The notes under the pieces: model-generated
Database searches by the model: none
The model's input: the letters and a program-made list of their open reading frames with translations, nothing else
Told to the model about the DNA's origin: nothing
Program-made: the position numbers and the translations under genes
Shown: positions 5,138-29,720 of the stretch, in pieces
Position numbering within the stretch: position 1 is the stretch's first letter
How the letters are laid out: each line of letters opens with the position of its first letter
IMG/VR virus record: IMGVR_UViG_3300011114_000458
Span: 1-41,639 of that record
Strand: one strand, 5' to 3'
Source: a virus
Length of the DNA: 41,639 nucleotides

Positions 5138-7093
5138 TTATTTTGTGGGGCTACTGCCCCGTACAGTAAAACCCCCATTGCCCGACATCCGGGCCATAAA
5201 CGCCGCATATGCTGCTGGATTTGAAGTTTTTAACCCTTCCAGTAGTAACGGGTCTTTAGCAAGCGCCAACGCTATAGCTTCGTCTCCTTTGCTTTCCGCA
5301 GTTGCTTCTGACCAATATTTAAACCCTTTTTTAACATCTCCATCACCTAATACAGAATACAGTTTTTCTGGCCCTCCGGGCAGCTTGGCTATTTCTAACT
5401 GCATTGCACGATTTGCAGCAGCAATCCCAGTCTGTGTTCTAGCGTTAAGGTCAGCAATGCCTGCTTGTAGGCTTCGATCTTTTCCTTTTTCTGCCGATTC
5501 CATAAACAGCTTTACGTTGTTTTCTACTTGCGCCTTGCTTTCGCCTGTTAGTTTTTCAAGCGCATTAAACATTATTGTTTTGCCTTCTAGCGCGGTTCTA
5601 CGGGTTTCCCGTTGTATGTCTCTTTCTTCTTTATCGTTTAGGTCGGAACGAATAAGCCTGAGTCCGTCAATGCGATCTCGGGTTTCATTTAATTTTTCTT
5701 TGGCTTTCTCAAGTAACGCTAAACCTTCTCGGTACGTTTTTGTTCCGGCCAAAGCACCCTTGCCAATATTCACCATTGCATATGGAGAATCTCCAGACAT
5801 CATGGCAAACCCAGCTTCCATTAAAGCTAGATACGGACTTCTTTCTGCCGACTCTGCAATGCTGGCTTCTTGTTTGTTTGCACGTTCTTCTTGTTTAGCG
5901 TAGGGGTCACCCTGCTTTGCCATTCTTTCTTTAAAACCCGTAAGTTCTGCCGCAGCGTTTGTGTTGCTCTCATCCACAAGGGCTTGGCGGTCTGCTTTCA
6001 AAGGGTCAACAACAGGCGGTTGCAGATCGGTAAACTTTTTTCGTGTAGCGGCTATAGCTTCGGGTGTTAAATCTGGTGACGTTAGCAACGTCTGTAGCCC
6101 GGAAGCCTTGGCAGAAGGGGGAGTACCAGCACCAGCACCAGCACCAGCAGCAGGGGCAGGACGAGGAGGGGCAGGACGAGGAGGGCCAGCACCATTAGGG
6201 TCTTCCGCACCACCACTGCCAGCCTGATTGGGTAAAACCCCTGTTTGGCTATAAGGGCCAAGTACGCGAGGGGGAAAACTCATTGAATCTATAGGCGCTG
6301 GTGCATTTACCACAGCCATTGCTTTGTCGCGTTGCCCTGATGGAGTTGCATCATAAACCTCTTGTTTTAGACGCGCTCTTCGCTCTTCTGTGGTTTCTCC
6401 GGGGATAGCGTTTTTAATTTTGTTGTACGCATCCACCCCAAATTTCTGTATAAACTCCAAAATGCCCATGTTTTCGTAGCCGGTTGTATTTGGAAGTAGC
6501 CCCTCGCCTTCTTGCCGAATCATGCCGGGATACATAGGTTGGGGCTTGGGTGTTCCCCCAGATTGAAATTGTTGAACGTCTCCACCATCAGCAAACCCAA
6601 CTATCCCACCATCAGCCATGTTAGACAAGCTGCGTTCGGGTAAAGCGCCTATGCCCATATCTTCGGGCAGGCGGGAGTCCATGTAGCCACCATCTGCTGC
6701 CATCTGTGGTTGGCCCTGTGGCGGTGGCATACCTTGAGGTGGGCCTTGCGGTGGCATAGCTTGTTGGGGCATACCTTGAGGGGGCATACCTTGGGGAGGT
6801 GGGCCTTGGGGTGGGCCTTGGGGTGGCATACCCTGCGGTGGCATACCCTGTGGTGGCCCTCCTTGGGGCATCTGCGGCTGCGTCATAGCCTGAATTGCTT
6901 GCGGCACTACCGGATTTTTTATTTCAGACGCGCCTTGTTTGCTTAATTTTTGTTTTTTATCTTCGTTGTTTACATATAGTGCCGTTAATACCGCAATAGG
7001 ATCATCCATATTGTCCGCAGCATACTTTTGCCTGCCTTCTACACCCATTCGGGACAGCATTTTTTCCAAATTGTCAATTCGAGTACTTAACAT
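5138..7093 (-). CDS. Virion-associated protein with Pro-Gln-Gly-Met repeats
   Basis: 651 aa, ATG start with a good ribosome site (AAGGAAT). Three parts can be seen. Residues 1-70 are a charged helical head. Residues 72-131 are a low-complexity tract of PPQGMP/PQG units. Residues 131-180 carry the A-x-GG motif three times (AADGG, MADGGIVGFADGG). A Pro/Ala/Gly linker follows (about 290-325), then a long helical C-terminal half rich in Lys, Glu and Ala. There is no signal peptide or clear membrane segment. The gene lies between two other large repetitive proteins in the same orientation with gaps of about 10 bases. Its place downstream of the tail nozzle suggests a tail or internal virion protein; function unknown. 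The antisense strand of the repeats is also open but is a shadow. Confidence 0.85.
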   Translation of the reverse strand: MLSTRIDNLEKMLSRMGVEGRQKYAADNMDDPIAVLTALYVNNEDKKQKLSKQGASEIKNPVVPQAIQAMTQPQMPQGGPPQGMPPQGMPPQGPPQGPPPQGMPPQGMPQQAMPPQGPPQGMPPPQGQPQMAADGGYMDSRLPEDMGIGALPERSLSNMADGGIVGFADGGDVQQFQSGGTPKPQPMYPGMIRQEGEGLLPNTTGYENMGILEFIQKFGVDAYNKIKNAIPGETTEERRARLKQEVYDATPSGQRDKAMAVVNAPAPIDSMSFPPRVLGPYSQTGVLPNQAGSGGAEDPNGAGPPRPAPPRPAPAAGAGAGAGTPPSAKASGLQTLLTSPDLTPEAIAATRKKFTDLQPPVVDPLKADRQALVDESNTNAAAELTGFKERMAKQGDPYAKQEERANKQEASIAESAERSPYLALMEAGFAMMSGDSPYAMVNIGKGALAGTKTYREGLALLEKAKEKLNETRDRIDGLRLIRSDLNDKEERDIQRETRRTALEGKTIMFNALEKLTGESKAQVENNVKLFMESAEKGKDRSLQAGIADLNARTQTGIAAANRAMQLEIAKLPGGPEKLYSVLGDGDVKKGFKYWSEATAESKGDEAIALALAKDPLLLEGLKTSNPAAYAAFMARMSGNGGFTVRGSSPTK

Positions 7094-7102
7094 TTTGATT
7101 CC

Positions 7103-9985
7103 TTATGCCATGCTGTGGATAGCCAACGCAACAAGACCTTGTGGGCGGGATTTTACCAAACCACCTTTAGCATAACGTCCAACCATGCCGCCGTTTGCGG
7201 ATTTAAACCCACCGGATGCACCAAACGCTCCTAACGCAGTCGCACCTAAACCGCCTATCTGGCTAAGTGTGCTGGGAGGGGCTTGGTACATGGTACTGCC
7301 TAAGTTGGCTGTGGGCGCTGCACTGGCTTGGTTCATCATAAAACCAAGGTTTTTGTACGGCATGTTTTGCTCGTTCAAGAAGTCTTGGTATTGTGTATTT
7401 AGCCTTTGCTGTTCTTGGCCCTGTTGCATGTTTCCATACCCAGACAAAAGCTGGTTGGTTTGCACACCTTGGTTGTAACCCTGCCCGGCAATATTGGATA
7501 GCCCGGTAGCACCTTGCATAGCGGCTTGCTGTGCCTGCAAGTCATAGTTAGCACCAAACTGACCTGACTGTTCGTTCAGTTGATTGGCTGCTTGTCCGTA
7601 CTGTGCGCCTGTTCCTGCTGAAGTGAGTTTTTGTCCCAACCCAAATTCACTGGCTCTGTTTCCTGCTGCTTGGTTGGCGAGTTCTACTTGCTGTTGGTTG
7701 CTAGTGTTGTACTGCGCCCTTTCGTTTTTGGCTTGTGCGCCATACATTTCTGCTTGTTGCTTATTTGCCGCTGTTTGCATAGCGGCCTGCTGATCCATAG
7801 TGCCTTGCTGCATTCCATATTGGCCTGCCAAGGCTTGGTCTGCCATCCCAGTTTGCTGGCGATATCCTGCATTGGTCATCTCCGTTTGCTGTCTGTTGGC
7901 AAGATTGGCAAGTCCGTATTGACTGTTAGCGGCTTGATTCTGCCTTTGCGCTTCTTGCCGATTTGCAAGATTTGCCATTCCTGTTTGCTGTGCATAACCA
8001 GCGTCTGCCATGTTGGTTTGCTGCCGATTACTTGTGTCAGACAAGCCGTACTGCCCCGCCATTGCCTGATTTTGCCTCTCCGCTTCTTGTGCTTGTGCAG
8101 AGGTCTGCATGTTGGCAGCTTGGTTAAACTGCCCTTGCTGCATTCCGTATTGGCCTTTTTGCCCTTGATTGGCTAACTCAGTCTGCTGACGCAACTGTGC
8201 GTTCTGTGCGTTGGTGTTGTACTCCATGCCTTGGTTGGCTTGTTGGGCGGCAAGATTAGTTTGCTGATTAGCCAACTTTCCCTGCATGTTGTACTGCTGA
8301 TTGGACTGCTGCGCTTGCAACCCAGTTTGAGCACCTAGACCTTGCGTTTGCAGCCCCGCACTGAGATTCTGCACATTGGCCTGTTGCTGAACACCTTGGT
8401 TAGCTAGTGCGGCCTGCATGGCTTGGCCTGCTGTTAGCCCTTGCGCTTGCAGCCTGTTAGATTCGTTTTGAACAGCCGCTTGTTGTTCATTGTTTAAATT
8501 GGCTAGTTTGGTTTGAAGATTAATCTGACCTTCGCCTAGTTGTTGAACTCCTAAATTAGCAGCCAGATTTTGTTGGCCTACGGTCAACCCAGCTTGTTGA
8601 TTGGCGGTCTGGGCCTGTAAGCCTTGGCCTTGTTCCGTATTGAACTGCTGCTGTGCTTGTTTATACGCTTCCTGCAAGCCTTGTGCTTGGATATCACCCT
8701 GTTGAGTGGCGAGGTTACGGGCCGCTTCAGCGTCCATAATGGCTGCTCTGGAGCCACCAAAAGCCCCTGCCCGAGTCTGTTCACCCTTGCGTCCAGTTGA
8801 GGCCACATCTGCGGCTCGTTGCGCTTCCCGTTGCTGAATACCAACCACACTCTGCATGTAGGGCGACATGTACGCATCTGCTGAACCGGGTTGAGCAAAA
8901 CTCTTTGTTTCTACTCGTTCTGCTGGCCCCATCTGGTAGTTTTTAAGACTTGCCAAACCAGTGTCTTTAGCAGCTTTTATGTCTCTGGATTCAATTGCTG
9001 AACCTTTAATATCTTTTGCCGCAGTCATACTCAGATCGCGCAAGTTGGGTGCGTTTATGCGTTCTTCCCCTACTCGTTCTGCGTTTATGTCTTTTGGCCC
9101 TGCAAACTGTTGTTGCTTGGCTTCCGGTGCTGCGCTTAGTGTGGCGGCATTGGCTGCCTGCGCTTTCATCTCAGGTGTGGCTTTGTTAAGGGCCGCAATC
9201 CCAGTCGCCGCTGTCCCGGTTTGCGCCGTCATCTGCGGGGCGTTTAAATCTTGTTGTGCTGTTCCAATTGCCGCTATGCCTGTTGGGGCTTTGCCCATTG
9301 AGGCTGCGGTGGCAGCTTGGGCTGTAGGCAAAGAGGCAAGCCCTGCTTCTTTAGCCGATGCTTCTTTTGCGGTGTAGTCTAGTTTGTCGGGGGCAGTGTA
9401 CTGATTAGCAAATGTGCTTGGATCATACGTAGATCCCGCAGCAGTATTTGCCGCAGTTTTCATAATGTCTTGAGCACTCTTATTAGCAACTGCGGCGTCA
9501 CCGCCCACCATGTCCTTAGCACCCTGCATGGCTTGTTTTTGCAAGTCTGAAAACTCAGCTTGTCTTTCGTACCCTTTAAACTCTGTTACCGGTTTACCCG
9601 CTTCATCCAGTTTTGGAACCATGACGGGCGTGCCATCTTCATTCTTTTTTGCATACTTTGGATCGCTTGGGTTTTTATTTGCTGCTACAGCATCCGCATT
9701 TGTGTAGTTATTTGGGTTTGGTCTTTTACCCGTGACCATCTCTGTAATTTCTTTTGCCGTAACAAAAGAAGGGGTCATCACCGGAACTTGACCACCATAC
9801 TTTTCTGGTGATTTAAAACTCTCAATCTCGGGCAGCTCATTTGCGCCGATGATGGGCTTCCCGTCTGGCCCCATCTTGTAGTTGTAGGTCAGCGCTCGTG
9901 CTTGACCTATGTTCTCCTTCAGGTACGGAGCAATTGCTGGGTTATACCCAATTTGATTTACAACGGTTTGTGTTGCGTCTGCCAT
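7103..9985 (-). CDS. Large Gln/Ala-rich repeat protein, probable virion protein
   Basis: 960 aa, ATG start. The N-terminal ~180 residues look ordinary (VNQIGYNPAIAPYLKENIGQ and on). From about residue 400 to 870 the protein is built of degenerate units of roughly 10-12 residues of the type LANRQQTEMANAGYRQQTG, very rich in Gln, Asn, Ala and Gly. These could form an extended helical or beta-solenoid rod. The C-terminus has two A-x-GG motifs (ANGG near 930 and YAKGG near 938). Composition and position next to the other large proteins suggest a structural part of the virion, possibly a fibrous or ejected component. I recognise no enzymatic motif, and the specific function is unknown. Confidence 0.85.
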   Translation of the reverse strand: MADATQTVVNQIGYNPAIAPYLKENIGQARALTYNYKMGPDGKPIIGANELPEIESFKSPEKYGGQVPVMTPSFVTAKEITEMVTGKRPNPNNYTNADAVAANKNPSDPKYAKKNEDGTPVMVPKLDEAGKPVTEFKGYERQAEFSDLQKQAMQGAKDMVGGDAAVANKSAQDIMKTAANTAAGSTYDPSTFANQYTAPDKLDYTAKEASAKEAGLASLPTAQAATAASMGKAPTGIAAIGTAQQDLNAPQMTAQTGTAATGIAALNKATPEMKAQAANAATLSAAPEAKQQQFAGPKDINAERVGEERINAPNLRDLSMTAAKDIKGSAIESRDIKAAKDTGLASLKNYQMGPAERVETKSFAQPGSADAYMSPYMQSVVGIQQREAQRAADVASTGRKGEQTRAGAFGGSRAAIMDAEAARNLATQQGDIQAQGLQEAYKQAQQQFNTEQGQGLQAQTANQQAGLTVGQQNLAANLGVQQLGEGQINLQTKLANLNNEQQAAVQNESNRLQAQGLTAGQAMQAALANQGVQQQANVQNLSAGLQTQGLGAQTGLQAQQSNQQYNMQGKLANQQTNLAAQQANQGMEYNTNAQNAQLRQQTELANQGQKGQYGMQQGQFNQAANMQTSAQAQEAERQNQAMAGQYGLSDTSNRQQTNMADAGYAQQTGMANLANRQEAQRQNQAANSQYGLANLANRQQTEMTNAGYRQQTGMADQALAGQYGMQQGTMDQQAAMQTAANKQQAEMYGAQAKNERAQYNTSNQQQVELANQAAGNRASEFGLGQKLTSAGTGAQYGQAANQLNEQSGQFGANYDLQAQQAAMQGATGLSNIAGQGYNQGVQTNQLLSGYGNMQQGQEQQRLNTQYQDFLNEQNMPYKNLGFMMNQASAAPTANLGSTMYQAPPSTLSQIGGLGATALGAFGASGGFKSANGGMVGRYAKGGLVKSRPQGLVALAIHSMA
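7480..8760 (-). repeat. Degenerate coding repeat of the Gln-rich protein
   Basis: On the + strand the region repeats words such as TTGCTG, TTGGCTTG, CATTCCATATTGGCCTG and GTTTGCTG at roughly 30-36 base intervals. These encode the ~11-residue Q/A/N units of the 960-aa protein. The boundaries are approximate because the units decay gradually. Confidence 0.6.
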
Positions 9986-9994
9986 GATTTATCC

Positions 9995-12280
9995 TTATGC
10001 GGGAAGGTATTTGTGTGATTTGCTGTTTATAGCCACACTGTTTTTGCCAGTAGTCTTACGGCGGTTGGCTTGTATACGATCCATCATTTTATATAGCGCC
10101 CGTGCGCCAGCTTCGGTGGAGCCATTACCCAGTTCTGACACAATACGGGCAGGCACAACGAACTCACCATCTGCAAGTCGAGCAGGTTGACGGTCACCCA
10201 CAGTGGCAGGGATTGAATCTGACACGCCATCACCGGGGCCACGCAGGAGCCTGCCACCGTCTGAGTAGCCACCAAGGGAGCCTAGACCACCTTGGGCGTA
10301 ATAGCCTATCATGCCGCCTTTAGCCATTTCACCACTAGTAGCTGGGCTAAATCCACCATTACTATCTGCACCCGTAAAGCCGCTGCCATCAATACTGGCG
10401 GCTGCGCCACTATGTGCCCCCTGCGCTCCACCAGAACCTAAACCTGATCCGCCACCGTATGCAGTGCCTCCACTGTATGCAGGGCCACCCTGCTGCCCAC
10501 CCTGCGGCCTACCAGCTAATTCCCCCGGTGATAGCCCCGTTTCAGGGTCCTTGCTCAGTCCTTCGATGGTTTGCCCTGTTAAACCGTTTTGGGCTTGCTG
10601 CGATAAATAGCCCCCCAAAGAAGTTAGCCCCATGTTTGACAAGGTGCGACCTATCGTTGCAGCTAAACCCCAATTAGGTGTTGTATTAGGTGGGTTCTCT
10701 CCACCAGCGGGGCCACCACTATCACGCATTAGTGTGTCAACACCGGGGTTTGTTTTTTCTTCAGCTTCTTTGATAACGTACCAATGTTTCTTTACGGGAT
10801 CATAACGATATGTTTTCCCATCTGCTGCGAGAAAATCTGGCTTGGGCACATCTGGCAGTGGGGTTACAGGTCTTACATCATCTGTTTTCTTTCTGCCATA
10901 TCCAGAGTAGTCATAGTCAGGATCAAGAGGAATACCACCGCCAACAGCAAGCGCCATCAACCCACCTTTTGCAGCGGAGTCCCGTCCACCTTCTAGCCTT
11001 GGAACAATCACCGGGTTCTCAACCACTTGTCTAGGAACCATCCCAGTTTCATCAATTCGGCGTTGAGTAGGTTGAGTGGGTTCCATAGGTGGTTGTGGCC
11101 TAGGCGGTTCCATAGGCTGTTGCGCTACAGGCCGAGTAGGCTCCATAGGTTGTTGTGTTATAGGCTGAATTGGTTGTTGTGGTGCAGGCTGAATTGGTTG
11201 TTGTACTATGGGTTTTTCTACAAACGTGTTGTTTCGTTGAGCACTACTTGCTGGGTTTTCATAACCAGAGGGGTTTACATTTAACTTACCGGGGGGTAAA
11301 TTGTTTTTATTAATTTCAAAAAGGCGCTCTGTCCGATTTACAGGTGTAAAGTTTTTAGTACCTCTGTTTCCAATATTTACTAAATCTGCGGGAGTTAAAC
11401 TTTGTCCGTTTCTAATGTATGGCATGTTTTCAATAGGGTCTCTTTTGGTGCGACCCCCCGCACCAAAATGCTCTATGCCATCATCCAAAACAAAACCGCC
11501 ATCGGCAGCATACTGAGTTACGTAAGTAGGCCCAAAATAACCCCGTTGAGCAGAACTGCCTGTGTCTCTTTGATACGGAAGTTGTTGTCTGTTAATGTTT
11601 ACATTTGCATATCTGGGGTCAAACTTTATTTGCTCAAAAGTTGGTACTGATGTTTGGTCTTGACTTGATAGGGCTGACAACAACGGAGCGCCAAGCATCG
11701 CAGCGCCTTGGAGTTTACTACCGCCACCAATTGCGCTGAACGCACCCATTGGGTTTTTAAACCCCTCTGTTACGCCTCTTGATAATCTATCAAAGTTAGA
11801 AGCTCCCTTTTGCGCTGCGTTACTTGCTTGTGCTTGAAGTAGATCGTAGTCTCCACTTACGCTACTGGCCCCAGAGGGCAGTGCAGCGGTTGCTGCTTCA
11901 GCGCCAATTGCGGATTCACCAAAATTCATCAGCCCTCCGGCAATACCTGATCCACCATAAGCACCCAGACCTGCCATGAGTCCTTTGCCTAAGTCTTTGC
12001 TGGTCAAAGCTGTTAGACCGCCGACACCTAAAGCTGCCATAAAGGGGGTGATGGCTCCTCCTGAGAAGAATGTGGCTGCACCGCCAAGGAGAGTTGGTAA
12101 CAAACTATCTAGGAAACCTGCTTCAGGCAACCCTGTTTGGGGGTTAATGGTTAGGGTTCCTCCATGTGCCATAGCCAGACTTTGCAGACCTGCTACCTCA
12201 CGGGGGGACATGTGGACAAGGGTCGAGTCTGGGCCTCTGCCTTGAGCAGACATGTGGTTGGCTAGTTGGTATAAGCTCAT
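9995..12280 (-). CDS. Virion structural protein with conserved phage C-terminal motif
   Basis: 761 aa; its ATG overlaps the stop of the upstream 105-aa gene by four bases. The N-terminal ~120 residues have Gly/Ala-rich hydrophobic helices (AALGVGGLTAL, GLGAYGGSGIAGG) that could touch a membrane. The middle is Pro/Gln-rich (QPIQPITQQPMEP). The A-x-GG motif occurs several times (YAADGG, AAKGG, MAKGGMIGYYAQGG). Near residues 680-735 lies a stretch I have seen in many phage structural proteins: GPGDG.SDSIPA, then PARLADGEFVVPA, then LGNGSTEAGA..LY.MMDRI. That motif usually lies at the end of tail or internal virion proteins of unknown mechanism. A role as virion or ejection protein is inferred. 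Confidence 0.85.
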   Translation of the reverse strand: MSLYQLANHMSAQGRGPDSTLVHMSPREVAGLQSLAMAHGGTLTINPQTGLPEAGFLDSLLPTLLGGAATFFSGGAITPFMAALGVGGLTALTSKDLGKGLMAGLGAYGGSGIAGGLMNFGESAIGAEAATAALPSGASSVSGDYDLLQAQASNAAQKGASNFDRLSRGVTEGFKNPMGAFSAIGGGSKLQGAAMLGAPLLSALSSQDQTSVPTFEQIKFDPRYANVNINRQQLPYQRDTGSSAQRGYFGPTYVTQYAADGGFVLDDGIEHFGAGGRTKRDPIENMPYIRNGQSLTPADLVNIGNRGTKNFTPVNRTERLFEINKNNLPPGKLNVNPSGYENPASSAQRNNTFVEKPIVQQPIQPAPQQPIQPITQQPMEPTRPVAQQPMEPPRPQPPMEPTQPTQRRIDETGMVPRQVVENPVIVPRLEGGRDSAAKGGLMALAVGGGIPLDPDYDYSGYGRKKTDDVRPVTPLPDVPKPDFLAADGKTYRYDPVKKHWYVIKEAEEKTNPGVDTLMRDSGGPAGGENPPNTTPNWGLAATIGRTLSNMGLTSLGGYLSQQAQNGLTGQTIEGLSKDPETGLSPGELAGRPQGGQQGGPAYSGGTAYGGGSGLGSGGAQGAHSGAAASIDGSGFTGADSNGGFSPATSGEMAKGGMIGYYAQGGLGSLGGYSDGGRLLRGPGDGVSDSIPATVGDRQPARLADGEFVVPARIVSELGNGSTEAGARALYKMMDRIQANRRKTTGKNSVAINSKSHKYLPA

Positions 12281-15799: not shown

Positions 15800-16291
15800 T
15801 CAATCCTTGCCACCTTTGAACGCTCTGCCGCCAAAATGGAAGCTGATGATGCTGGCAAAGATGATCTGGGTGTCGGCGTCCCAGAGTTTTGCAATCAGCA
15901 CATCAAAGGCAATGTCCCGCTGCCATGCGTAAACAAAGCCGCCGATCTCCACGAAGGCAAACAAGGCAAAGAATCCGTAGGTCAGTATTGGGCGCACACC
16001 GGAACGCAGGTTAATCATCCACTGGCTGGCTCCCTGCCCAATGGCTATGTCGTGGGCGTACAGTGCGGCTCGTTCTGATGCCTCGGCTTCGATGGCCTGA
16101 CCTTCTACTTTGATCTCCTCCACCCGCTGCTGCGCTTCAAAGCCAGCCTTGCGTAGCTCAAGCTCACGCTCAATCTGGAGTTGGGCCATTGCCATTTCAT
16201 GCTTTTTGTCAGCACGATCTTGGAAAAAACCCAGCAGTTTAGGCAAGCCGCCAGCAAGAAAGGAGACTAGGGTGGAGAGTAAGGTCAGCAT
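15800..16291 (-). CDS. Holin, three-transmembrane type
   Basis: 163 aa. Membrane segments can be seen at about residues 2-22 (TLLSTLVSFLAGGLPKLLGF), 101-121 (LTYGFFALFAFVEIGGFVYA) and 134-152 (ending IIFASIISFHFGG). Between the first two is a charged Glu/Lys/Arg/Gln helix (about 27-90), likely cytoplasmic and coiled-coil. This layout fits the 3-TM holins found in phages and gene transfer agents. It should form the lesion that lets the cytoplasmic lysozyme reach the wall. Its ATG overlaps the preceding membrane gene by seven bases. The HNH gene separates it from the lysozyme. Confidence 0.75.
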   Translation of the reverse strand: MLTLLSTLVSFLAGGLPKLLGFFQDRADKKHEMAMAQLQIERELELRKAGFEAQQRVEEIKVEGQAIEAEASERAALYAHDIAIGQGASQWMINLRSGVRPILTYGFFALFAFVEIGGFVYAWQRDIAFDVLIAKLWDADTQIIFASIISFHFGGRAFKGGKD

Positions 16292-16512
16292 TTCTTTTCG
16301 CCCTCGTCGTGAGACAGTTTAATTCCAGCCAATAAGCCAATGAAGCCGCCGACAATGGTTTGAAATGCAGGGCCAACAAGTTCAAAAATCTTGTTGTTGT
16401 CCACCTTGTCGTCAAACAGTCCAAGCAACATGACACCAGACATTGACAGAACAACAATACACAAGGTCATGCTGACCATCAAAGTGACAAAGAAGGTGAG
16501 TTTGGCTTTCAT
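16285..16512 (-). CDS. Small two-helix membrane protein of the lysis cassette
   Basis: 75 aa. There are two hydrophobic segments: residues 5-33 (LTFFVTLMVSMTLCIVVLSM and beyond) and about 50-66 (AFQTIVGGFIGLLAGIKL). A charged C-terminus follows, ending in EGEKKC. The start overlaps the upstream gene by four bases (ATGA). It could be a holin, antiholin or pinholin partner of the three-helix holin next to it. I recognise no specific family. Confidence 0.75.
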   Translation of the reverse strand: MKAKLTFFVTLMVSMTLCIVVLSMSGVMLLGLFDDKVDNNKIFELVGPAFQTIVGGFIGLLAGIKLSHDEGEKKC

Positions 16513-20128: not shown

Positions 20129-20662
20129 CTACGTTGCAATATTTTGCCAATTCGGTGTTTGCGGTACGTTTATCACGCCCCATGCGGGGGTCTGTGGGAC
20201 ATTTATCACTCCCCAAGCAGGTGTCTGTGAATCGTCAATAACACTCCAAAAAGCAATTCCAAAACTTTCTACTGCGCCTGTTGCCGCTACGCCTGTTAGA
20301 GCAAGTGAGTGGCTTGGTGCTACTGTCCCTACTGCCCCTGTAGCCGATACCCCTGTTAGGGCTGGGGAGTGCAAAACACCCAGTGTTCCAACCGCACCCG
20401 CTGCATTTACACCTGTCAGAGCCACTGCAAGGTTGGGAACCACTGTTCCAACAAACCCGCTGGCAAACGTCCCTGTCTCTACAATAATGTAAGACGGTAC
20501 TAACGTCCCTACCGCCCCGGATGCCGCTACACCAGACAGCGCTACCGATAAATTTGCCTTAACTGACCCAACGGCTCCCGTTGCTGCAACGCCCGTGATG
20601 ACAACTGTACCGCCACCCCAGACACTGCTACCCCATGTATCGTCGCCCCATCCAAGAGACAT
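20129..20662 (-). CDS. Repeat protein, probable fibre or virion surface component
   Basis: 177 aa. After a Trp/Gly-rich start (MSLGWGDDTWGSSVWGGG) there are about six imperfect ~22-residue repeats around LTGVxATGAVGTVxP. A second repeat, QTPAWGVINVP, occurs about three times at the C-terminus. The strands are short and hydrophobic, fitting a beta-structured surface protein. Its gene lies directly upstream of the fibre gene with a 9-base gap, so a role near the tail fibre is likely. No precise function recognised. Confidence 0.75.
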   Translation of the reverse strand: MSLGWGDDTWGSSVWGGGTVVITGVAATGAVGSVKANLSVALSGVAASGAVGTLVPSYIIVETGTFASGFVGTVVPNLAVALTGVNAAGAVGTLGVLHSPALTGVSATGAVGTVAPSHSLALTGVAATGAVESFGIAFWSVIDDSQTPAWGVINVPQTPAWGVINVPQTPNWQNIAT

Positions 20663-21772: not shown

Positions 21773-22431
21773 GTTACTGGAACCCTAGCCTGACCGCTGC
21801 GGTATGCGTCCTGTCTTTCAAGCCCATCGCCCAGACGTTTGAGTTGGCCCATTGCCTCTTTGTACTTGCCATCATACAGGCCAATCATGTCAGCTTCACC
21901 CTTCATGTAGGTGTAGGCTTCAACCAGTGTCCCATACAGAAGGGCGGGATCGTAGTTGTCACCAAGCCATGTGGTTGAAGCGGTAACAATAGATTCTGGG
22001 TAGTAGTAGTAATGAAGCTCCATGCTATAGGCAGCGTCTGGAGTGGGGCCAAGAAGAAACGTGAGTTCTGTTGTGATGACACTAGATGCCACCGCTGGGC
22101 CGAACAAAGCATAAAACTTGGGTGACCCGGTGGTTGTTGGCTTGGGGTACGCCTCCCGGATGAAGTTTACATCCTTGTTCAGCAAAAATGTGTACGCACC
22201 TGTGGTTGGGTCTATTGCTGCCAGAGAGTAAGAAGACAGGAAATCATCAGGACAGGCCAAATACTTGTTACTTGCGGTGGTGATGCCAGTTACATTCTTA
22301 CGCAGTGCTGGAATCTGTACGGTGTTGTATATACGTTTCTCTGCCTGTGTGATAAACAAATTCATGTCCACAGTAGGAAAAGTGTTCTCCGTGTAGGAGG
22401 AAACCGCAGAAACCAACGCAGCGTAGTTCAT
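21769..22431 (-). CDS. Head-tail adaptor (tail tubular protein A/gp7-like)
   Basis: 220 aa. The sequence has the hallmarks of podovirus adaptor or tail-tubular A proteins that sit under the portal: VSSYTENTFPTVDMNLFITQ, AEKRIYN, a KYLACPDDFLSSYSLA segment, and a helical C-terminus (LYGTLVEAYTYMKGEADMIG, LYDGKYKEAM). Such proteins form the ring that connects portal and nozzle. It lies in the neck/tail block and overlaps the 78-aa gene upstream by four bases. The assignment is by recognition of pattern; a second connector candidate is the 306-aa protein. Confidence 0.75.
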   Translation of the reverse strand: MNYAALVSAVSSYTENTFPTVDMNLFITQAEKRIYNTVQIPALRKNVTGITTASNKYLACPDDFLSSYSLAAIDPTTGAYTFLLNKDVNFIREAYPKPTTTGSPKFYALFGPAVASSVITTELTFLLGPTPDAAYSMELHYYYYPESIVTASTTWLGDNYDPALLYGTLVEAYTYMKGEADMIGLYDGKYKEAMGQLKRLGDGLERQDAYRSGQARVPVT

Positions 22432-22664
22432 GCCATCGGGCCTCTTGCAGTGATGCCTTTAGTAGCCGCGCCGTTACCACGAGTTACAAGACCTGATGTC
22501 TTTACACCGGGTTGTTCTCCGCTGGTGATGCGTCCAATCGAAGCACTGGCGTTGTTTAACATGCTCATGTCTTTGCCCTTGCCGGGGTTAGCCTCGACCG
22601 TGACGGCCTTGCCAGACATGGTGTGGGGCTTTGCGTAAGCCGCTGCTTGTTTGTTGTTAATCAT
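22428..22664 (-). CDS. Small basic protein of unknown function
   Basis: 78 aa from the ATG at 22664, chosen because GGAGGT lies four bases upstream; a GTG four codons earlier is less likely. The sequence is rich in Gly, Ala, Lys and Ser (INNKQAAAYAKPHTMSGKAV, RGNGAATKGITARGPMA) and seems disordered. It belongs to the cluster of tiny basic proteins in the neck region. Function unknown. Confidence 0.7.
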   Translation of the reverse strand: MINNKQAAAYAKPHTMSGKAVTVEANPGKGKDMSMLNNASASIGRITSGEQPGVKTSGLVTRGNGAATKGITARGPMA

Positions 22665-22665
22665 C

Positions 22666-22854
22666 TTAACCTCCACGACCAGATTTCTGGTTCATCACTT
22701 TAGCCATGCCACGACCGTACTTCATCATGTCCATGTCTGTCTTGCCGCCTTTGGCAAACTTGGTCATGGGTTTACCGGGATGTAGGGCTTTCTCATGCTT
22801 ATGCACGGCTCCTGCCATCATTTTCTTGTCCTGCTTCAAATCTGCCTTATCCAT
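22666..22854 (-). CDS. Small basic protein with the AKGG motif
   Basis: 62 aa from the ATG at 22854, which has AGGAG five bases upstream; a longer reading lacks such a site. The sequence is Lys/Met-rich (MDKADLKQDKKMMAGAVHKH, PGKPMTKFAKGG, MNQKSGRGG). It shares the FAKGG motif with several other late proteins and resembles the small basic proteins at 26-28 kb. Function unknown; it may bind DNA or structural partners. Confidence 0.75.
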   Translation of the reverse strand: MDKADLKQDKKMMAGAVHKHEKALHPGKPMTKFAKGGKTDMDMMKYGRGMAKVMNQKSGRGG

Positions 22855-22880
22855 ATAAGCTCCTAAGTAATAATTGCATG

Positions 22881-23261
22881 TCACACTGTAACTGAACCAA
22901 GTTCCAATTCTGCCACCAAATAGTTGGGTGTTAGCCCGTCATCGTTTGACCTAGACCCGCCTACCGGGTTCCAATTCCACTGAAATATTCTGCTTCCTTC
23001 GCCCGGATATCCGTCTACCAACAGGCCAGAAGCGTAATAACTCAAGTCCCTGCGTGGCTCCCGTACGGCCTGTGGGTCATCTACCGGGTACATCCCAAGC
23101 TGCAACTGAGGCTGATCCGGTGTCCAGCAGGTTGGGCACACCAGCAAGTTGTAGGTTTTGGTCTTGACAACTTCCTTTTTTAGTTCCTTCAGCTTGTAAC
23201 GAAACCCACAACGGTCACATTCCGCTATCGCATTCTTACCTGACGCAAACCGATTACCCAT
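22881..23261 (-). CDS. Zinc-ribbon protein
   Basis: 126 aa. Two CxxC pairs are visible, CDRC (about residues 15-18) and CPTC (about 42-45), separated by a Lys-rich loop (KLKELKKEVVKTKTYNLLV). This is a typical zinc ribbon. The C-terminal part is Pro/Trp/Gly-rich (GEGSRIFQWNWNPVGG). Phages often carry such proteins in the structural block; whether it binds DNA or serves in virion assembly is unknown. It sits between the connector gene and the small basic proteins. Confidence 0.8.
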   Translation of the reverse strand: MGNRFASGKNAIAECDRCGFRYKLKELKKEVVKTKTYNLLVCPTCWTPDQPQLQLGMYPVDDPQAVREPRRDLSYYASGLLVDGYPGEGSRIFQWNWNPVGGSRSNDDGLTPNYLVAELELGSVTV

Positions 23262-23263
23262 GA

Positions 23264-24184
23264 TTAACTCATAAACATCTGGCGTGGCACAAACCGAACT
23301 GCGGCCTTTTCTCGGTCTTCATCCTGCGCCAACTGCCAAGCCTCGTCATATTGAGCCTTTAACACCTGTAAACGCTCCATGCCATTGGGCAACTTGAGCG
23401 CCAAGTAGTAGGCTAACCCTGCGGCTACGCAAGGTATAAACCGAAACGGCACATCCATTGTGTCTGAGCCATCCCCGGCGTTTTGATTCCTACGCAGCCG
23501 CCAATAAACGAAGGTGTATGTTTGGGAGCCATCAGGCGTGGGCCAGACAGTCACTGCTGGAGGATTTGACACATAGACCACTGTGGCAGTTATATGCGTT
23601 GCTGCGGTGGTATTGGCTTGTCCTCTGGAGCAGGCTGTCAGGACATTGCCCACGATGTAACCGTAGTAGATGATCTCGTTGTCCACCTTAATGTACCCGG
23701 CAGCAGCGAGTCCTATGACTGAACTCAGGGTGATGGTGGTGGCGGTAGCCGTTACGGCTCCATTCAAGGTCAGCGTTGTGGCTGATGTTTGGCCTGAGTT
23801 GCGCTGCACCATCACTTGGATGGGTCTGGCTTGGGTTAGCTTGTTAGGTAGGGTAGCGTAGGTACTGACGCTGATGCGGGTGATGGTCAGGTCTGCTTGG
23901 TTGGATGTTGAGTTGGCATCGGTGCGGATGACATGCTCAAGCAAGTCTACAGTGTCTGTGGGGAGTGCGTAGGTGTTTAAACCTTGAGTTAGGGTGAATG
24001 ATCCCTGCTCAATTGTCCACATGTTGATGCCCCGGTTGGCCCAATCCGCAAACATGATGTTCAGGGATCGCCGTGCGGTACGCATGTCATAGCCGGAACG
24101 AAGCTCAGACCCCGCACGTTCAAATGCGTCTTCTATGACTTCACTCAAGTCCATGTCAAATGTAGCTACGCCTGATGTAGTCAT
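23264..24184 (-). CDS. Head-tail connector / DNA-stabilisation protein (P22 gp4-like), with inserted beta domain
   Basis: 306 aa. The N-terminus (LSEVIEDAFERAGSELRSGY, TARRSLNIMFADWANRGINM) and C-terminus (FRFIPCVAAGLAYYLALKLP, then LKAQYDEAWQLAQDEDREK) match the helical pattern of connector proteins under the portal. In between, roughly residues 133-205, sits a Thr/Ala-rich segment (TATATTITLSSVIGL, IKVDNEIIYYGYIVGNVLTA, CSRGQANTTAATH). It looks like a mobile beta domain seen in other phage neck and tail proteins; the parent fold resumes at VTVWPTPDGSQTYTFVYW. Likely role: extending the portal channel and sealing packaged DNA. Confidence 0.78.
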   Translation of the reverse strand: MTTSGVATFDMDLSEVIEDAFERAGSELRSGYDMRTARRSLNIMFADWANRGINMWTIEQGSFTLTQGLNTYALPTDTVDLLEHVIRTDANSTSNQADLTITRISVSTYATLPNKLTQARPIQVMVQRNSGQTSATTLTLNGAVTATATTITLSSVIGLAAAGYIKVDNEIIYYGYIVGNVLTACSRGQANTTAATHITATVVYVSNPPAVTVWPTPDGSQTYTFVYWRLRRNQNAGDGSDTMDVPFRFIPCVAAGLAYYLALKLPNGMERLQVLKAQYDEAWQLAQDEDREKAAVRFVPRQMFMS

Positions 24185-24189
24185 AATTT

Positions 24190-25446
24190 TTATCCCGAGT
24201 CCCTACCACCGTACTCATTACTACGACTATTCTCAGAACCTAGTTGCGCTTGTTGTGGAGTTTGTTGTAGAACTTGTTGTGGTTGTTGGCTTTGTTGTTT
24301 AGCTTGTTGAGCTTGTTGGGCATTCATTGCTGACAACATACTTTGCATATTGGATTGCTGATTTTTTGGCATACCCATTGAAACAGATTGAGGCATATCC
24401 ATTGTGTTAATCATAACTTGATCAGTTCCATATGTTCCCATTGCTTGCTTTTCCGGTCTTACTCCATATGTCCCTGTTTCTGGGTTTCCTCCGGTTGCTC
24501 CTAAATTGGCAATTGTATTTCTGCCTTGCTCTCCCTGAGTAGGAGGCTTTTCATAAATAGTGCCGGGGGGCGCTTTTAATGTTAATTCATCCCCTTGCCT
24601 TTGCTGCTGCATGTATTGCTGTTGTTGCTGTTGTTGCTGTCCAAATTGTTGAGGGCCATACGGATTCTGCATTTGATACGGGCTGTACTGTTGCTGTTGC
24701 CCATAACCCTGTTGCTGTTGCCCATAACCCTGTTGCTGTTGCCCGTAACCCTGTTGACCATAGCCTTGTTGCTGTCCGTAGCCCTGCTGTTGACCATAAC
24801 CTTGTTGCTGTCCATAGCCCTGCTGTCCATAGCCCTGCTGTTGACCATAACCTTGTTGCTGTCCGTAACCTTGCTGTCCGTAGCCGCCCATGCCACCGTA
24901 ACCCTGTTGCTGTCCGTAGCCGCCCATGCCACCGTAACCCTGTTGCTGTCCGTAGCCACCAAATCCTTGCTGTTGACCATAACCCTGTTGCTGTCCGTAG
25001 CCACCCATACCACCTTGTTGACCATAGCCTTGTTGTTGACCATAGCCACCAAATCCTTGCTGTCCATAGCCTTGCTGTTGACCATAACCTTGCTGTTGAC
25101 CATAACCTTGCTGTTGACCATAACCTTGCTGTTGACCATAACCTTGCTGTTGACCGTAGCCACCAAAACCTTGTTGTCCGTAGCCACCTTGTGGATTAAA
25201 GTTTTGTTGACCATAGCCACCAAAACCTTGTTGCTGACCAAACCCACCTTGTTGACCAAAACTTTGTTGTTGTTGTCCAAAACCACCAAACCCACCTTGT
25301 TGGCCAAACCCACCTTGTTGACCAAAGCCGCCCATGCCGCCCTGTTGTCCAAAACCAAAGTTTTGTTGTGACTGCTGCTGTTGACCAAAGCCTTGCTGTG
25401 GATTAAACTGCGACCTTGAATTTCCCATGTTCATTTGTGTTGGCAT
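24190..25446 (-). CDS. Gly/Tyr/Gln low-complexity (prion-like) protein
   Basis: 418 aa, joined to the upstream gene by a TAATG junction. Residues 19-282 consist of Phe/Tyr-Gly-Gln units: first FGQQGG, then many copies of QGYGQQ with GGYGQQ and GGMGGYG. The rest (about 285-418) is Gln/Met-rich but less regular ([38 protein letters not shown]). There is no signal peptide, membrane helix or known domain. The composition resembles eukaryotic FUS-type domains that phase-separate. In a phage neck/tail block it may be an adhesive or flexible virion component. Function unknown. Confidence 0.8.
24601..25392 (-). repeat. Tandem coding repeats of the GYGQQ protein
   Basis: On the + strand, words of 18-21 bases such as TTGCTGTTGACCATAACC and CTGTCCGTAGCC repeat many times, each encoding GYGQQ(Q). 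Third positions vary between copies (CCATAACC, CCGTAGCC, CCATAGCC). The unit is therefore conserved more strictly in protein than in DNA. Such an array can expand and contract by slippage. Confidence 0.8.
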
Positions 25447-26258: not shown

Positions 26259-26837
26259 TCAGCACATCCGTCCACGGGTCTTACCCCGTTGGGCTATGCC
26301 ATCACCTCGGCTGGATGCTGAGACTGCGCCGCCTTTGGAAAATGTTGCAACAACACCCGGAGTTTCTGAACGTAATTTTTCTGCTGTTCTTTTCAAATTT
26401 TTACTTTTATCTAAATAGTTTTGTTTTTTTATAAAGTTACTTATTTCTGATTCCGTTTTACTTTGTGATTCTGCTTTTTTTATTGCATTATCTCTTGTGA
26501 AATCTAAAAAAGCTTTTTCTGATGCAGCCTTTTCCGCATCAGAACCAACATATGTTTCGCGACTAGGTGAGGGAGCGTTTCTACGAGTCAGCCCCTGCTG
26601 CTTGTTCATGTAGTCCCGCAAAGATAAACCAGATTTTTCCAATTCTTCTTTGGTGACTATCGGTGTTTTTTTAGTTAGCGTTCCCGCAGCTACGGGTCTT
26701 CCATCCATGCCGGGCGCAGCTACCGGTTTTACACCCGGTTTTTCATCCGGTTTTAGACTAGCAACAGAAGCCAGCGCTCTAGTGCGGGTCTCCGCATCAA
26801 TGTTTGAGTTTTCGTTTTCTTCAATATCTTGAGCCAT
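26259..26837 (-). CDS. Basic protein with SKGG and GDGIAQRGKTRGRMC tail
   Basis: 192 aa; ATG start with AGGAGAA upstream. The sequence is charged and helix-rich (KAFLDFTRDNAIKKAESQSK, FIKKQNYLDKSKNLKRTAEK), with a disordered Pro-rich N-terminal third. It ends FSKGGAVSASSRGDGIAQRG, then KTRGRMC, a tail it shares with the 120-aa protein two genes upstream. The last residue is cysteine. The tail may be an assembly tag or a DNA-binding patch; this is inference. Confidence 0.78.
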   Translation of the reverse strand: MAQDIEENENSNIDAETRTRALASVASLKPDEKPGVKPVAAPGMDGRPVAAGTLTKKTPIVTKEELEKSGLSLRDYMNKQQGLTRRNAPSPSRETYVGSDAEKAASEKAFLDFTRDNAIKKAESQSKTESEISNFIKKQNYLDKSKNLKRTAEKLRSETPGVVATFSKGGAVSASSRGDGIAQRGKTRGRMC

Positions 26838-26846
26838 GTCATTCTC

Positions 26847-27311
26847 CTAGCAGGGCATGCCGCCCTTGTTCATTTTGATCTGTGTGGCTTTGGTTTTACC
26901 TTTGGAGGCAACACCATCAGCAGCACGGACAAAACCGCCAGTTGCCATCTTGGTCATGCCGCCCTTGTTCATCATGCCTTTGCCATCACCAATAAAGGAA
27001 GGTTTGCCATCTTTCATGGGCATCCCGCCGCCAGCCATTTTTTTGGTCATGCCGCCCATGTTCATGGCAGAGTTCTTCATCATCTTGCCATCAGGCATCT
27101 TGTGCATACCTTCTTTTTTATTAGCCATCATTGCCATGAAACCGGGGTTCATTTTCGTAGCCATATCACCACCTTTTGAGAAAGATTTGCCTTTGTCGGC
27201 GTTAGAAAAATCCTTGCCCACGGACTGTGGGATACCTACCTTCTTGGCAAAGCCCGGATTGTGAGCTATTGCTTCCATAAAGTTGTGCTGTTTCTTGCTG
27301 GAGCTTGGCAT
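26847..27311 (-). CDS. Lys/Met/Gly-rich small protein (MPSxSKKQHNFM family)
   Basis: 154 aa. The N-terminus (MPSSSKKQHNFMEAIAHNPG, then FAKKVGIPQSVGKDF) belongs to a small protein family I have seen in many phages. The rest is Lys/Met/Gly-rich with repeated KGG/TGG motifs (FSKGGDM, MNKGGMTKMATGGFVRAADG, MNKGGMPC) and ends in cysteine. Its stop runs into the SD of the next gene (TGCTAGGAGAAT). Function unknown. Confidence 0.8.
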   Translation of the reverse strand: MPSSSKKQHNFMEAIAHNPGFAKKVGIPQSVGKDFSNADKGKSFSKGGDMATKMNPGFMAMMANKKEGMHKMPDGKMMKNSAMNMGGMTKKMAGGGMPMKDGKPSFIGDGKGMMNKGGMTKMATGGFVRAADGVASKGKTKATQIKMNKGGMPC

Positions 27312-27674
27312 TTAGCACATCCGACCTTTGGTCTTGCCACGCTGGGCTATGCCGTCTGCTGACTTGACGTAGCCACCTTTGGCGTATTTCTTAGCTGGTA
27401 TCAATTTTCCAGAAGGCATGGAGTTAAAAAACTGTCGTTCAGCTTCTTCAAACGCAGACGTTCCGGGGGTGAAGCCAAAGCTTTTAACTTTGTCAGTTAT
27501 TGCTTTTGGTACGATACGTTTCCCATCTCTTTCAGCATCGGCTCCTGCGGAATTAAATTTGGGAGTTAAGTACGATGGCCCCCCGTCCCTCTCAGCATTG
27601 GCGGCTTCGGAATTAAGTTTAGGAGATGTATAAACCCCATCTCTTTCAGTTTCGTATGATGCTTTTGTTGCCAC
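27312..27674 (-). CDS. Small protein with YAKGG and ADGIAQRGKTKGRMC tail, GTG start
   Basis: 120 aa, read from a GTG (27672-27674) with AGGAG about seven bases upstream. The N-terminal part repeats the pattern ERDGVYTSPKLNSEAANAER / ERDGGPSYLTPKFNSAGADA. The middle has AITDKVKSFGFTPGTSAFEE, then the C-terminus YAKGGYVKSADGIAQRGKTK plus GRMC. The gene abuts the next one directly. The shared tail links it to the 192-aa protein; both end in Met-Cys. Confidence 0.78.
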   Translation of the reverse strand: MATKASYETERDGVYTSPKLNSEAANAERDGGPSYLTPKFNSAGADAERDGKRIVPKAITDKVKSFGFTPGTSAFEEAERQFFNSMPSGKLIPAKKYAKGGYVKSADGIAQRGKTKGRMC

Positions 27675-27683
27675 AATATTCTC

Positions 27684-27941
27684 CTAGCATTTCCATCTTG
27701 CAAGAGCCGCTGCTTTGCGGGTTGGTTTGCCTTTTTCGTCTTTCATTGGCCCCGGCATACCGCTCATCCGCGCACAGAATGAATCTTTGCGGGGGCCACC
27801 TTGGGGCTGGGGAGCCTTGAGGTTGCTGCCAGTTGCTGCGTTGTACTTGGCCCTGCCCTTGGCAGTCAGACCCGCACCCTGAGAGATCGGTAGCTTTTCG
27901 CCCCGACCCACAGAGAGAACCGGGCCTTTCTTCTTAGCCAT
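27684..27941 (-). CDS. Small basic conserved phage protein ending in Cys
   Basis: 85 aa: KKKGPVLSVGRGEKLPISQG, AGLTAKGRAKYNAATGSNLK, then APQPQGGPRKDSFCARMSGM and TRKAAALARWKC. This is a widely distributed small phage family (perhaps DUF6321, from memory), basic and Gly/Lys-rich, and often near capsid genes. It overlaps its upstream neighbour by eight bases. The stop and the next SD form TGCTAGGAGAAT. Function unknown; nucleic-acid binding is plausible from charge. Confidence 0.85.
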   Translation of the reverse strand: MAKKKGPVLSVGRGEKLPISQGAGLTAKGRAKYNAATGSNLKAPQPQGGPRKDSFCARMSGMPGPMKDEKGKPTRKAAALARWKC

Positions 27942-28252: not shown

Positions 28253-28672
28253 TTAAGCTGTGCGTGTAAACACGTAGGCTGTTGCGCTAGAGAACATCAG
28301 CGTGAACCGAGCCAAGCCTGTGACACCGGAGGCCACTGTCAGGTCACCAAACGAGCCGGGGGTGTCAGCGGCAGCAGTGGACAGGATGCCGTTAACTGCT
28401 ACAACGATAGTCACAGTAGATGCGCCTGCTGTGTTGTCAATGTACAGGTCAAGGGTAGTGCCTTGCGTTGCACCCAGTGCTGCACCAAGCAGCGTACCAG
28501 TGGGTAGGGTAATGGCAGTTGCGGCTGCGGAGGTTGAGGTGATGTAGCCAGTTGCTACCTGTGCTGCGGTAGCCGTTGCTGTGGAATTAATTGCATTGGA
28601 GGCGGTAACTTGATGCCCATCAATGAAGCCATTTTGGGATGTGACGGGGCCATTAAACGTGGTACGTGCCAT
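28253..28672 (-). CDS. Small beta-rich virion protein (decoration-like)
   Basis: 139 aa (TTFNGPVTSQNGFIDGHQVT, TGYITSTSAAATAITLPTGT, LDLYIDNTAGASTVTIVVAV). Its Thr/Ala/Gly-rich strands fit head decoration or tail-surface proteins. It is the first gene after the terminator downstream of the major capsid gene, with a possible promoter in between, so it may be expressed apart from capsid. Confidence 0.75.
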   Translation of the reverse strand: MARTTFNGPVTSQNGFIDGHQVTASNAINSTATATAAQVATGYITSTSAAATAITLPTGTLLGAALGATQGTTLDLYIDNTAGASTVTIVVAVNGILSTAAADTPGSFGDLTVASGVTGLARFTLMFSSATAYVFTRTA

Positions 28673-28808: not shown

Positions 28809-29720
28809 TCAAGACGTTCCGGGGCTTCCAAAGATGCCAAGTGGGTCGCTCCAGCCAAAGCTGTAACGCTCACGGCTCTTGTAACGCACATTTCCGGTGT
28901 CAAAATCACCATCCATTGAGTTTGCCAACGCTGCACGTTCAAAATGCTTCAGGCCGTTAGGCACATCGGTCATCAGGAACCATGCATTGGTATCAGTCAA
29001 GAAGTGGTTAATGCAATACCCTTGTGGGATAGAGCCGTTGTTCTTCAAGGCGTTGATATCGTTGTCAGCAGTGCCAACACGTAGATTGGTTTCCAGCAAG
29101 CGGGTTGCAGTGAACTGCAATGCTGGCGGGATGACCAATTTTTTGGGCTGTGCTGCGATCAGAAGACCGCGCTCATCAGTCCAAGCAGCGATTTGAATAA
29201 CTGCGTTTTCCAACGAAGTCTCATTCAAATCAGCGGCTGTAGCAGGGCGATTGCTGTTGGTTCCACCAGACACCAGAGGGTGCGAAGTAGAAATTAAAGC
29301 AACTCCGTCACCACCCACATATGCGCTACTAAAAGCGTTGTTTAGGGTAGATGCAGCTTTGACCTGCTTGGTGTACGCCATTGCACGGGCCAGAGCCTTG
29401 GTGTAACGGGCAGACAGCGAGTCATACAGGTTGTCCTCAACAGCCTCTTCAGTGATGGAGAAGCCAAGAGCGATAGTCTCGTGGTTGTACCGAGCTGTAA
29501 ACGCTTCCTGTGCATTGTCATAAGCAATGGCAGAACCCTCGTTTTTGACTGGTGCAGCGGAGAATCCCGACAGCTTGGTCTCTTCTTCAAAAGAACGCTC
29601 TGATTTTTCAGTCTCATAAATCTCTTTATGTTCCTGTTGGTAGGTTGTGTATTCCAAACCAAACAAAGCGTTCAGACCGGGAAGGAGTTCCTTCAGTAGT
29701 TGTGCGCGTGAAATAGCCAT
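28809..29720 (-). CDS. Major capsid protein (HK97 fold, Mu gpT-like)
   Basis: 303 aa, start after a clear ribosome site. It has an N-terminal charged arm (LFGLEYTTYQQEHKEIYETE), the region HETIALGFSITEEAVEDNLY, the loop ISTSHPLVSGGTNSNRPATA, and a C-terminal A-domain ending YKSRERYSFGWSDPLGIFGS. This pattern matches Mu gpT-type major head proteins. There is no N-terminal protease domain, and a scaffold gene is encoded three genes upstream, fitting procapsid assembly. It is followed by a strong terminator, as expected for the most abundant virion protein. Confidence 0.85.
   Translation of the reverse strand: MAISRAQLLKELLPGLNALFGLEYTTYQQEHKEIYETEKSERSFEEETKLSGFSAAPVKNEGSAIAYDNAQEAFTARYNHETIALGFSITEEAVEDNLYDSLSARYTKALARAMAYTKQVKAASTLNNAFSSAYVGGDGVALISTSHPLVSGGTNSNRPATAADLNETSLENAVIQIAAWTDERGLLIAAQPKKLVIPPALQFTATRLLETNLRVGTADNDINALKNNGSIPQGYCINHFLTDTNAWFLMTDVPNGLKHFERAALANSMDGDFDTGNVRYKSRERYSFGWSDPLGIFGSPGTS

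Follow-up and report, generated by a model that had tools for sequence, protein, structure and literature searches.

We analyzed a 41.6-kb virus record, IMGVR_UViG_3300011114_000458 of IMG/VR (positions 1–41,639; hereafter the window), in which two small basic proteins end in copies of one short sequence. The same sequence recurs at the very C-terminus of unrelated proteins encoded beside the capsid genes of related phages, where it is conserved in its residues rather than its codons, and the terminal cysteine highlighted by an earlier note on this DNA is not a conserved part of it. By analogy with the capsid-targeting sequence (CTS) of phage T4, the shared tail could be a C-terminal recognition tag that loads small proteins into the virion, a reading to which we give about an even chance.

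Four genes on the minus strand, located in a block of small genes between the capsid and tail-adaptor genes, encode proteins of 192 (26259–26837), 154 (26847–27311), 120 (27312–27674, GTG start), and 85 (27684–27941) amino acids (aa) that end in GRMC, GGMPC, GRMC, and ARWKC, respectively. The earlier note had reported this run of four adjacent Cys-ended genes, together with a tail, DGIAQRGKTxGRMC, common to the 120- and 192-aa proteins. Both observations hold: all four open reading frames (ORFs) are present with these ends, and the last 14 residues of the 120-aa (...KGGYVKSADGIAQRGKTKGRMC) and 192-aa (...KGGAVSASSRGDGIAQRGKTRGRMC) proteins agree at 13 positions. The two tag copies, DGIAQRGKTKGRMC and DGIAQRGKTRGRMC, occupy 27315–27356 and 26262–26303 (both minus strand). 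Overlooked at the time was a diverged copy of the motif, GGFVRAADGVASKGKTKATQI (26889–26951, minus strand), which lies inside the 154-aa protein ahead of its GGMPC end and was recovered both by tblastn with the 120-aa protein (E 2e-4) and by a tag profile (independent E-value, i-E, 0.0074, and 2.7e-13 for the 192-aa protein; the 120-aa protein is also found by the profile).

A degenerate DNA pattern for DG[LIVMF]AxRGKTxG, which leaves the position within a gene unspecified, was run over IMG/VR and yielded a sample of at least 120 stretches. Among 182 translated copies of the pattern, 152 stand exactly three residues ahead of a stop codon. When 144 distinct tails were aligned, D, G, A, R, G, K, T, and G were fixed by the selection itself, while the free positions, numbered from the C-terminus, were occupied by R at −16 (130 tails), A or G at −15, Q at −10 (112), R or K at −5 (143), K or R at −3 (134), and M, I, Y, F, L, or V at −2 (143). 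The resulting consensus is a GG linker followed by [RK](A/G)DG(I/C)AxRGKT[RK]G[RK]-Phi-x-COOH, where Phi is hydrophobic and x is mostly V, C, I, or L. AlphaFold predicts no structure for the tail of the 192-aa protein (block predicted local distance difference test score, pLDDT, 43–50), and the tag is probably a short, disordered C-terminal peptide.

Across 132 loci, the tag profile identified 312 tagged ORFs in 124 loci, the eight loci without any being named phage records; 180 tags in 113 loci had the strict C-terminal form. Since the profile threshold (i-E < 0.05) admits some non-tag ends, e.g., ...GRGLAKVAAQKRG of the 22666–22884 family, the count of 312, the 117 looser body groups given below, and all “tagged ORF” counts lean high, and the 180 strict tags are the safer set. 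Relatives of this 22666–22884 protein (minus strand), with the end ...GRGxAKxxxQKRG and a weak match to the tag profile, recur just downstream of the adaptor gene in several loci. The neighboring 82-aa protein (22428–22676, minus strand) ends in ...TRGNGAATKGITARGPMA, like a second, looser tail motif. Run over ten whole virus records, the DNA pattern had 15 matches and a reversed control none. In a genome collection, 28 stretches matched the pattern, only two of which had the tag flanks at a C-terminus: L133, a small contig with four tags binned with an uncultured gammaproteobacterium, and L155, from a Cellvibrionales bin; in a third stretch, L132, the motif is likewise followed by a stop after three residues, but there is no linker. 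Among nine named phage records, only Planktothrix phage Pag-Yong1 carries a tagged protein (UMO75986.1, ending in ...RDGCAKRGRTKGRFI). Searching isolates directly by tblastn with the tag peptide returned nothing; because the Pag-Yong1 copy was recovered by the profile, the short query and the filtering may be to blame.

Next, we considered the bodies that precede the tag. Clustered by single linkage of BLASTP hits, the 177 strict bodies of at least 30 aa gave 101 groups (70 singletons) at E 1e-5 and 87 groups (60 singletons) at E 1e-3, with one to four groups per locus; the 295 bodies of the looser profile hits formed 117 groups. A conserved short terminal sequence is therefore present on diverse proteins of one phage. 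Each of the 180 strictly tagged proteins has a net positive charge (median +11, ~135 aa). The bodies are also mosaic: the 192-aa protein, which has 24 body relatives in the locus set (19 aligned), shares with some of them a SGLSLRDYMNKQQGLTRR hairpin, predicted to be helical at residues 63–80 (26598–26651, minus strand; block pLDDT 94 and 90) and found as a body module beside the same tag in other contigs (alignment A2), while others of its relatives have a KAFxxARxxGDKxFxFxGKxY-like module ahead of the same tail. The body of the 120-aa protein has no relative in the locus set. Overall, the tail is a module on unrelated bodies.

The tagged genes also have a constant place in the head block. 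In 43 loci with both the major capsid protein (MCP) and the adaptor, 108 of 114 tagged ORFs lie between these two genes and on the same strand; the other six are three weak hits of another family and three ORFs just past the adaptor. Every one of the 120 pattern-found loci contains a homologue of some non-tagged window gene (in L053 only the DUF6321 protein, i.e., the 85-aa protein of the window), and 117 contain at least two besides DUF6321; a homologue of gene 25797 is present in 103 of the 120 loci and one of the adaptor-like gene in 101. From a separate scan with the MCP, we kept the best 80 of 599 stretches, 32 of which contain the whole MCP–adaptor interval. A tagged ORF was present in 27 of these 32 intervals and a strict tag in 22; with the removal of 11 intervals that share an identical 200-mer with a pattern-found locus, the counts are 16 and 11 of 21. 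Identity to the window MCP is 77–86% in 17 sampled contigs and 71% in Pag-Yong1, and since the bodies are nonetheless unrelated, they change while the shell hardly does. Genes of the block are thus variable between relatives (70 of 101 strict body groups being singletons), and capsid genes are conserved.

Within a genome, tails resemble each other as proteins more than as DNA. The two tails of the window match at 13 of their 14 residues but at only 8 of the codons. For 85 within-contig pairs, the likeness of variable tag residues was 0.581, compared to 0.499 when shuffled (reached by 0 of 2000 shuffles; two of the 113 loci were removed from these tests as near-duplicates, leaving 177 tags), while that of synonymous third bases was 0.390 vs 0.353 (reached by 105 of 2000), and that of the 30 nucleotides downstream of the stop was 0.254 within a contig vs 0.271 between contigs. 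As residues are kept while synonymous sites are near background, we conclude that the protein sequence of the tag is under selection. The recombination of a common cassette end raised in the earlier note is borne out to the extent that the tail is a module, but the DNA does not resemble the outcome of recent copying, which is unsupported given the codon differences and the lack of anything common after the stop. A string shared by two of the gene junctions, TGCTAGGAGAAT, does occur exactly twice, both times on the coding strand, but is not special: it is accounted for by TGC as the Cys codon, TAG as the stop, and a ribosome site, AGGAG, that overlaps the stop, and it can be considered ordinary because its TAGGAGAAT part also ends 20129–20662, whose protein is not Cys-ended.

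A short, position-fixed, and probably disordered terminal peptide on unrelated basic proteins encoded beside capsid genes suggests a targeting signal. Specifically, the tagged small basic proteins would be made beside the capsid genes, one conserved head component (MCP, scaffold, portal, or adaptor) would bind the tag, and any protein ending in the tag would be loaded into the virion, much as the N-terminal CTS loads the fast-changing internal proteins of T4, and may then be delivered with the DNA. The 154-aa protein combines an N-terminal SKKQHNFM module, a GG-rich middle, the diverged tag motif, and the terminal GGMPC (phrog_16759, 1.7e-21; phrog_22033 “virion structural protein”, 1.4e-9). 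Its N-terminal SKKQHNFMEAIAHNPGFAKKVGIPQSVGKDF module (27174–27311, minus strand) is found in 115 phage records, with 36 of the 40 matches listed belonging to phages >200 kb, and is common to phiKZ165.1 and other jumbo-phage proteins. As no more than a supporting hint for the packaging idea, it stands alone in phiKZ and in Klebsiella phage Eowyn (annotated “structural protein”), and begins a larger protein in Pectobacterium phage CBB (annotated “virion structural protein”). More tentatively, the tail may be a universal C-terminal “load me” tag in a large aquatic phage lineage, read by one head protein, with the tagged proteins forming an interchangeable arsenal that is packaged and injected, e.g., against host defenses.

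For uncultured phages, a role has been assigned to only a minority of genes, and the proteins that enter the host with the DNA are known for few model phages. If the proposed function is correct, the tag would offer a sequence-only route to listing injected proteins in uncultured phages, represent a C-terminal targeting route independent of the N-terminal one of T4, and be usable for placing chosen proteins in such capsids, as with the T4 sequence. In any case, this searchable short tag marks some 90–100 body groups otherwise beyond homology search. Literature queries, mostly in papers outside subscription, gave nothing for the tag letters or Pag-Yong1, and phrase queries gave no C-terminal phage tag in the titles and abstract starts of the matches listed (12 of 107, and 5 of 5), and the portion of the HTVC023P-type genome paper covered here holds no description of it (PMC9599517). 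The tag itself thus appears undescribed in the literature searched; its kind, i.e., a terminal virion-targeting tag, is known, and its function is a proposal from sequence.

Several observations weigh against a virion-targeting role. Three phages with similar MCPs, HTVC023P, DSL-LC04, and CRP-902, show no tag at a domain E of up to 10 in the stretches read, and 5 of the 32 MCP-chosen intervals have no tagged ORF, so that the capsid protein alone is no predictor of the tag. The T4 sequence is N-terminal and cleaved off, while the tag is C-terminal; binding to DNA or a protease is another option for the basic tails; and literature searches for virion proteomics of any tagged phage found none. 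In addition, the likeness of last residues within genomes (0.482 vs 0.246, with 0 of 2000 shuffles reaching it; 7 of 11 pairs in the MCP-chosen sample, 11 of 2000) is matched by that to the nearest relative (0.488 within a genome vs 0.459, with 13 loci higher, 16 lower, and 13 tied), and a tree-controlled pair test reached no significance with only 4–7 supported pairs. Because nearest relatives are equally concordant, co-evolution with a partner is not shown beyond shared ancestry, and we make no claim of a genome-specific co-evolution. Agreement of the last residue is 0.53 within genomes, 0.75 between relatives at 90% or above with different bodies, and 0.25–0.29 below 80%, which shows lineage dialects and no more.

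Given its exact C-terminal position and hydrophobic last residues, the tail could alternatively be a degradation or processing signal, with a host or phage protease reading the C-terminus and timing the removal of assembly factors. At the last position, the 180 strict tags have V (63), C (56), I (26), L (14), R (10), Y (5), M (3), K (2), or F (1); at the penultimate one, 179 have M, I, F, Y, V, or L and a single tag has C. Such ends resemble C-terminal degrons like ssrA and the MuA tail. The GG that begins 4–21 residues ahead of DG in 177 of 177 strict tags could then be a cut site. However, the last residue is R or K in 12 of 180 tags, and the two final residues are preceded by some twelve conserved ones, more than degrons of this type need, making this explanation unlikely in our view.

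The earlier note had suggested that the terminal cysteines could form disulphides or another cross-link in the virion, with conservation in relatives as the check. For the shared tail, this conservation is absent: Cys is last in 56 of 180 strict tags, with V, I, and L together commoner, in 10 of 32 strict tags of the MCP-chosen sample, and in 4 of the 16 from MCP-chosen loci without sequence overlap (V 7, C 4, R 3, L 1, Y 1), leading us to reject a conserved cysteine as the point of the tail. Consistent with a cross-link, the terminal Cys is the only one in 53 of the 56 tagged proteins that end in it, and tagged bodies are nearly Cys-free (0.13%), but 81 of the 124 tagged proteins that are not Cys-ended are Cys-free throughout. 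Similarly, the Cys end is frequent in the 192-aa protein’s own family (15 of 25, and 9 of the 10 sequences of alignment A2 that are closest to the window), yet a majority-Cys state, found in 27 of 87 loci, has switched at least 13 times along an adaptor tree (shuffled mean 23, minimum 18; a quick tree of one gene in recombining phages) and is a labile trait with lineage signal. Since Cys fills a mostly hydrophobic, variable last slot, a general disulphide role is unsupported; cross-linking is not the purpose of the common tail, may still apply to some of the proteins, and overall strikes us as rather improbable.

Cys makes up 0.41% of the 10,216 aa in 39 counted window genes, five proteins being Cys-ended, and composition alone predicts ~1e-8 runs of four Cys-ended neighbors, so that the run is not chance; the four genes are, however, not independent draws. 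The four conspicuous ends have three separate causes: the shared tag, the 154-aa family, and the DUF6321 domain. In the 154-aa family, 65 of 83 members in the locus set are Cys-ended, which is compatible with a covalent role there (this count and that of 96 DUF6321 members include the window’s own protein and some named phage records). The 85-aa protein belongs to DUF6321 (PF19846, 4.3e-23; 82.2 bits for a cut-off of 28.5), a family with matches in 478 phage records, of which 430 have Synechococcus, Prochlorococcus, or Cyanophage in their names. Its terminal WxC, the end of the domain and not of a tag, is present in 96 of 96 members, also a point in favor of a role for this Cys, and an FCxR-type motif in 94, with both Cys invariant in alignment A1; FCxR plus WxC is a pattern among the relatives considered here rather than a published definition. 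While 85 of the 96 members end in WxC and the window’s protein carries no tag, six relatives elsewhere (L044, L070, L075, L113, L124, and L133) carry the tag after WNC, with at least four changes of tag state on the adaptor tree (shuffled mean 5.9, minimum 4). The WxC cysteine is therefore a domain residue that becomes internal once a tag is added, contrary to a terminal link. A search for the name DUF6321 found no paper in the same, mostly subscription-free literature. The fifth Cys-ended protein (16285–16512, minus strand; 75 aa, ...GEKKC) has a hydrophobic N-terminal half and lies near a lysozyme-like gene, outside the tagged block.

The tail might also act without a protein partner, as a basic GxxxxGK[ST] segment that condenses or contacts DNA or binds phosphate. 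The net positive charge of all strictly tagged proteins fits such a role, and GIAQRGKT is spaced like a Walker A loop, in which GxxxxGK[ST] is strict and part of a strand-loop-helix. In the Pag-Yong1 copy, however, Arg takes the place of the Walker lysine (GRT), and no structure is predicted around the motif, leading us to reject a P-loop nucleoside triphosphatase. Furthermore, non-basic positions are kept (A/G at −15, Q at −10, hydrophobic at −2), and a DNA condenser would not be expected to stand at a constant distance from the C-terminus, so that we regard nucleic-acid or phosphate binding as quite improbable. Finally, a selfish or neutral module, spread by gene-end recombination in a hypervariable block, would be in line with the mosaic bodies, the repeated gain or loss of the tag on DUF6321, and the lineage-wide dialects, but is very unlikely considering that residues are kept while synonymous sites stay near background, with no shared DNA border downstream of the stop.

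The head genes of the window, of which the tagged block is part, lie on the minus strand. The MCP (28809–29720) was identified by family (PF25209, 5.9e-13; phrog_371, 2.8e-22) and is 66–72% identical to the MCPs of DSL-LC04, Pag-Yong1, and MinM2. The terminase, portal, scaffold-like, cement-position, and adaptor-like genes and the small-gene block were named by position and likeness to annotated relatives. A 139-aa protein (28253–28672, minus strand) takes the cement-protein position after the MCP, by position only (cf. the “cement protein” of DSL-LC04), and the tail-adaptor-like protein (23264–24184, minus strand), which borders the tagged block downstream, has the position of the “Pam1 adaptor protein” in DSL-LC04. 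NCBIfam gave no match for six proteins, and solved structures gave no credible match for DUF6321, the 154-aa N-terminus, the 192-aa family, or the MCP; structure models were of low confidence overall (pLDDT 59.6 for the DUF6321 protein and 60.6 for the 192-aa protein). Also inside the head–tail block is a Cys-free, low-complexity 418-aa protein built largely of repeats (24190–25446, minus strand), with no PHROG match and no Pfam match above cut-off. Further along the same strand, 5138–12280 encodes three large Cys-free proteins (651, 960, and 761 aa) with ADGG, AKGG, and ANGG motifs resembling the linker ahead of the tag, the 761-aa protein having DGVSDSIPATVGDRQPARLADGEFVVPA close to its end. 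A frame of at least 1709 aa (2–5128, minus strand) is open at the window edge, i.e., the record ends within a gene, and is probably a very large virion or ejection protein.

Several short-tailed phages provide the closest genomic comparison. Pag-Yong1, DSL-LC04, pelagiphage HTVC023P, and Roseobacter phage CRP-902 have MCPs 58–72% identical to that of the window and a similar order of head genes, small genes, and adaptor; Pam1 itself was not among the 21 records matched by the window MCP. Unlike in the window, small proteins of HTVC023P have looser RGxGAA motifs. Two of its proteins (L003, 14698–15081 and 15361–15726) contain RGGGAAVRGMGFKG- and RGFGAAR-type motifs.

The closest functional parallel is the set of T-even internal proteins, described as a highly diverse collection of defense proteins in which the CTS alone is conserved, and whose lysines, in T4, contact packaged DNA (PMC3012670). 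One of them, IPIII, is reported to be required for infection of one E. coli strain (PMC9391042). As on the T4 internal proteins and Alt, a single short terminal sequence is placed on diverse phage proteins, which in the T4 case are host-dependent, a parallel in arrangement for which we claim no likeness in sequence. The T4 CTS is an N-terminal propeptide of 10–20 residues removed by the protease gp21 (PMC5694885), whereas the tag, known here from sequence alone, stands exactly three residues before the stop in 152 of 182 copies. The same source describes identical N-terminal ends on the diverged head proteins gp53 and gp54 of SPN3US, reads them as CTS-like, and extends the CTS idea to ejection-protein propeptides (PMC5694885). 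In contrast to these long, cleaved N-terminal propeptides, the tag is short and C-terminal. The N-terminal module of the 154-aa protein does recur in jumbo phages, but it is another sequence element than the tag.

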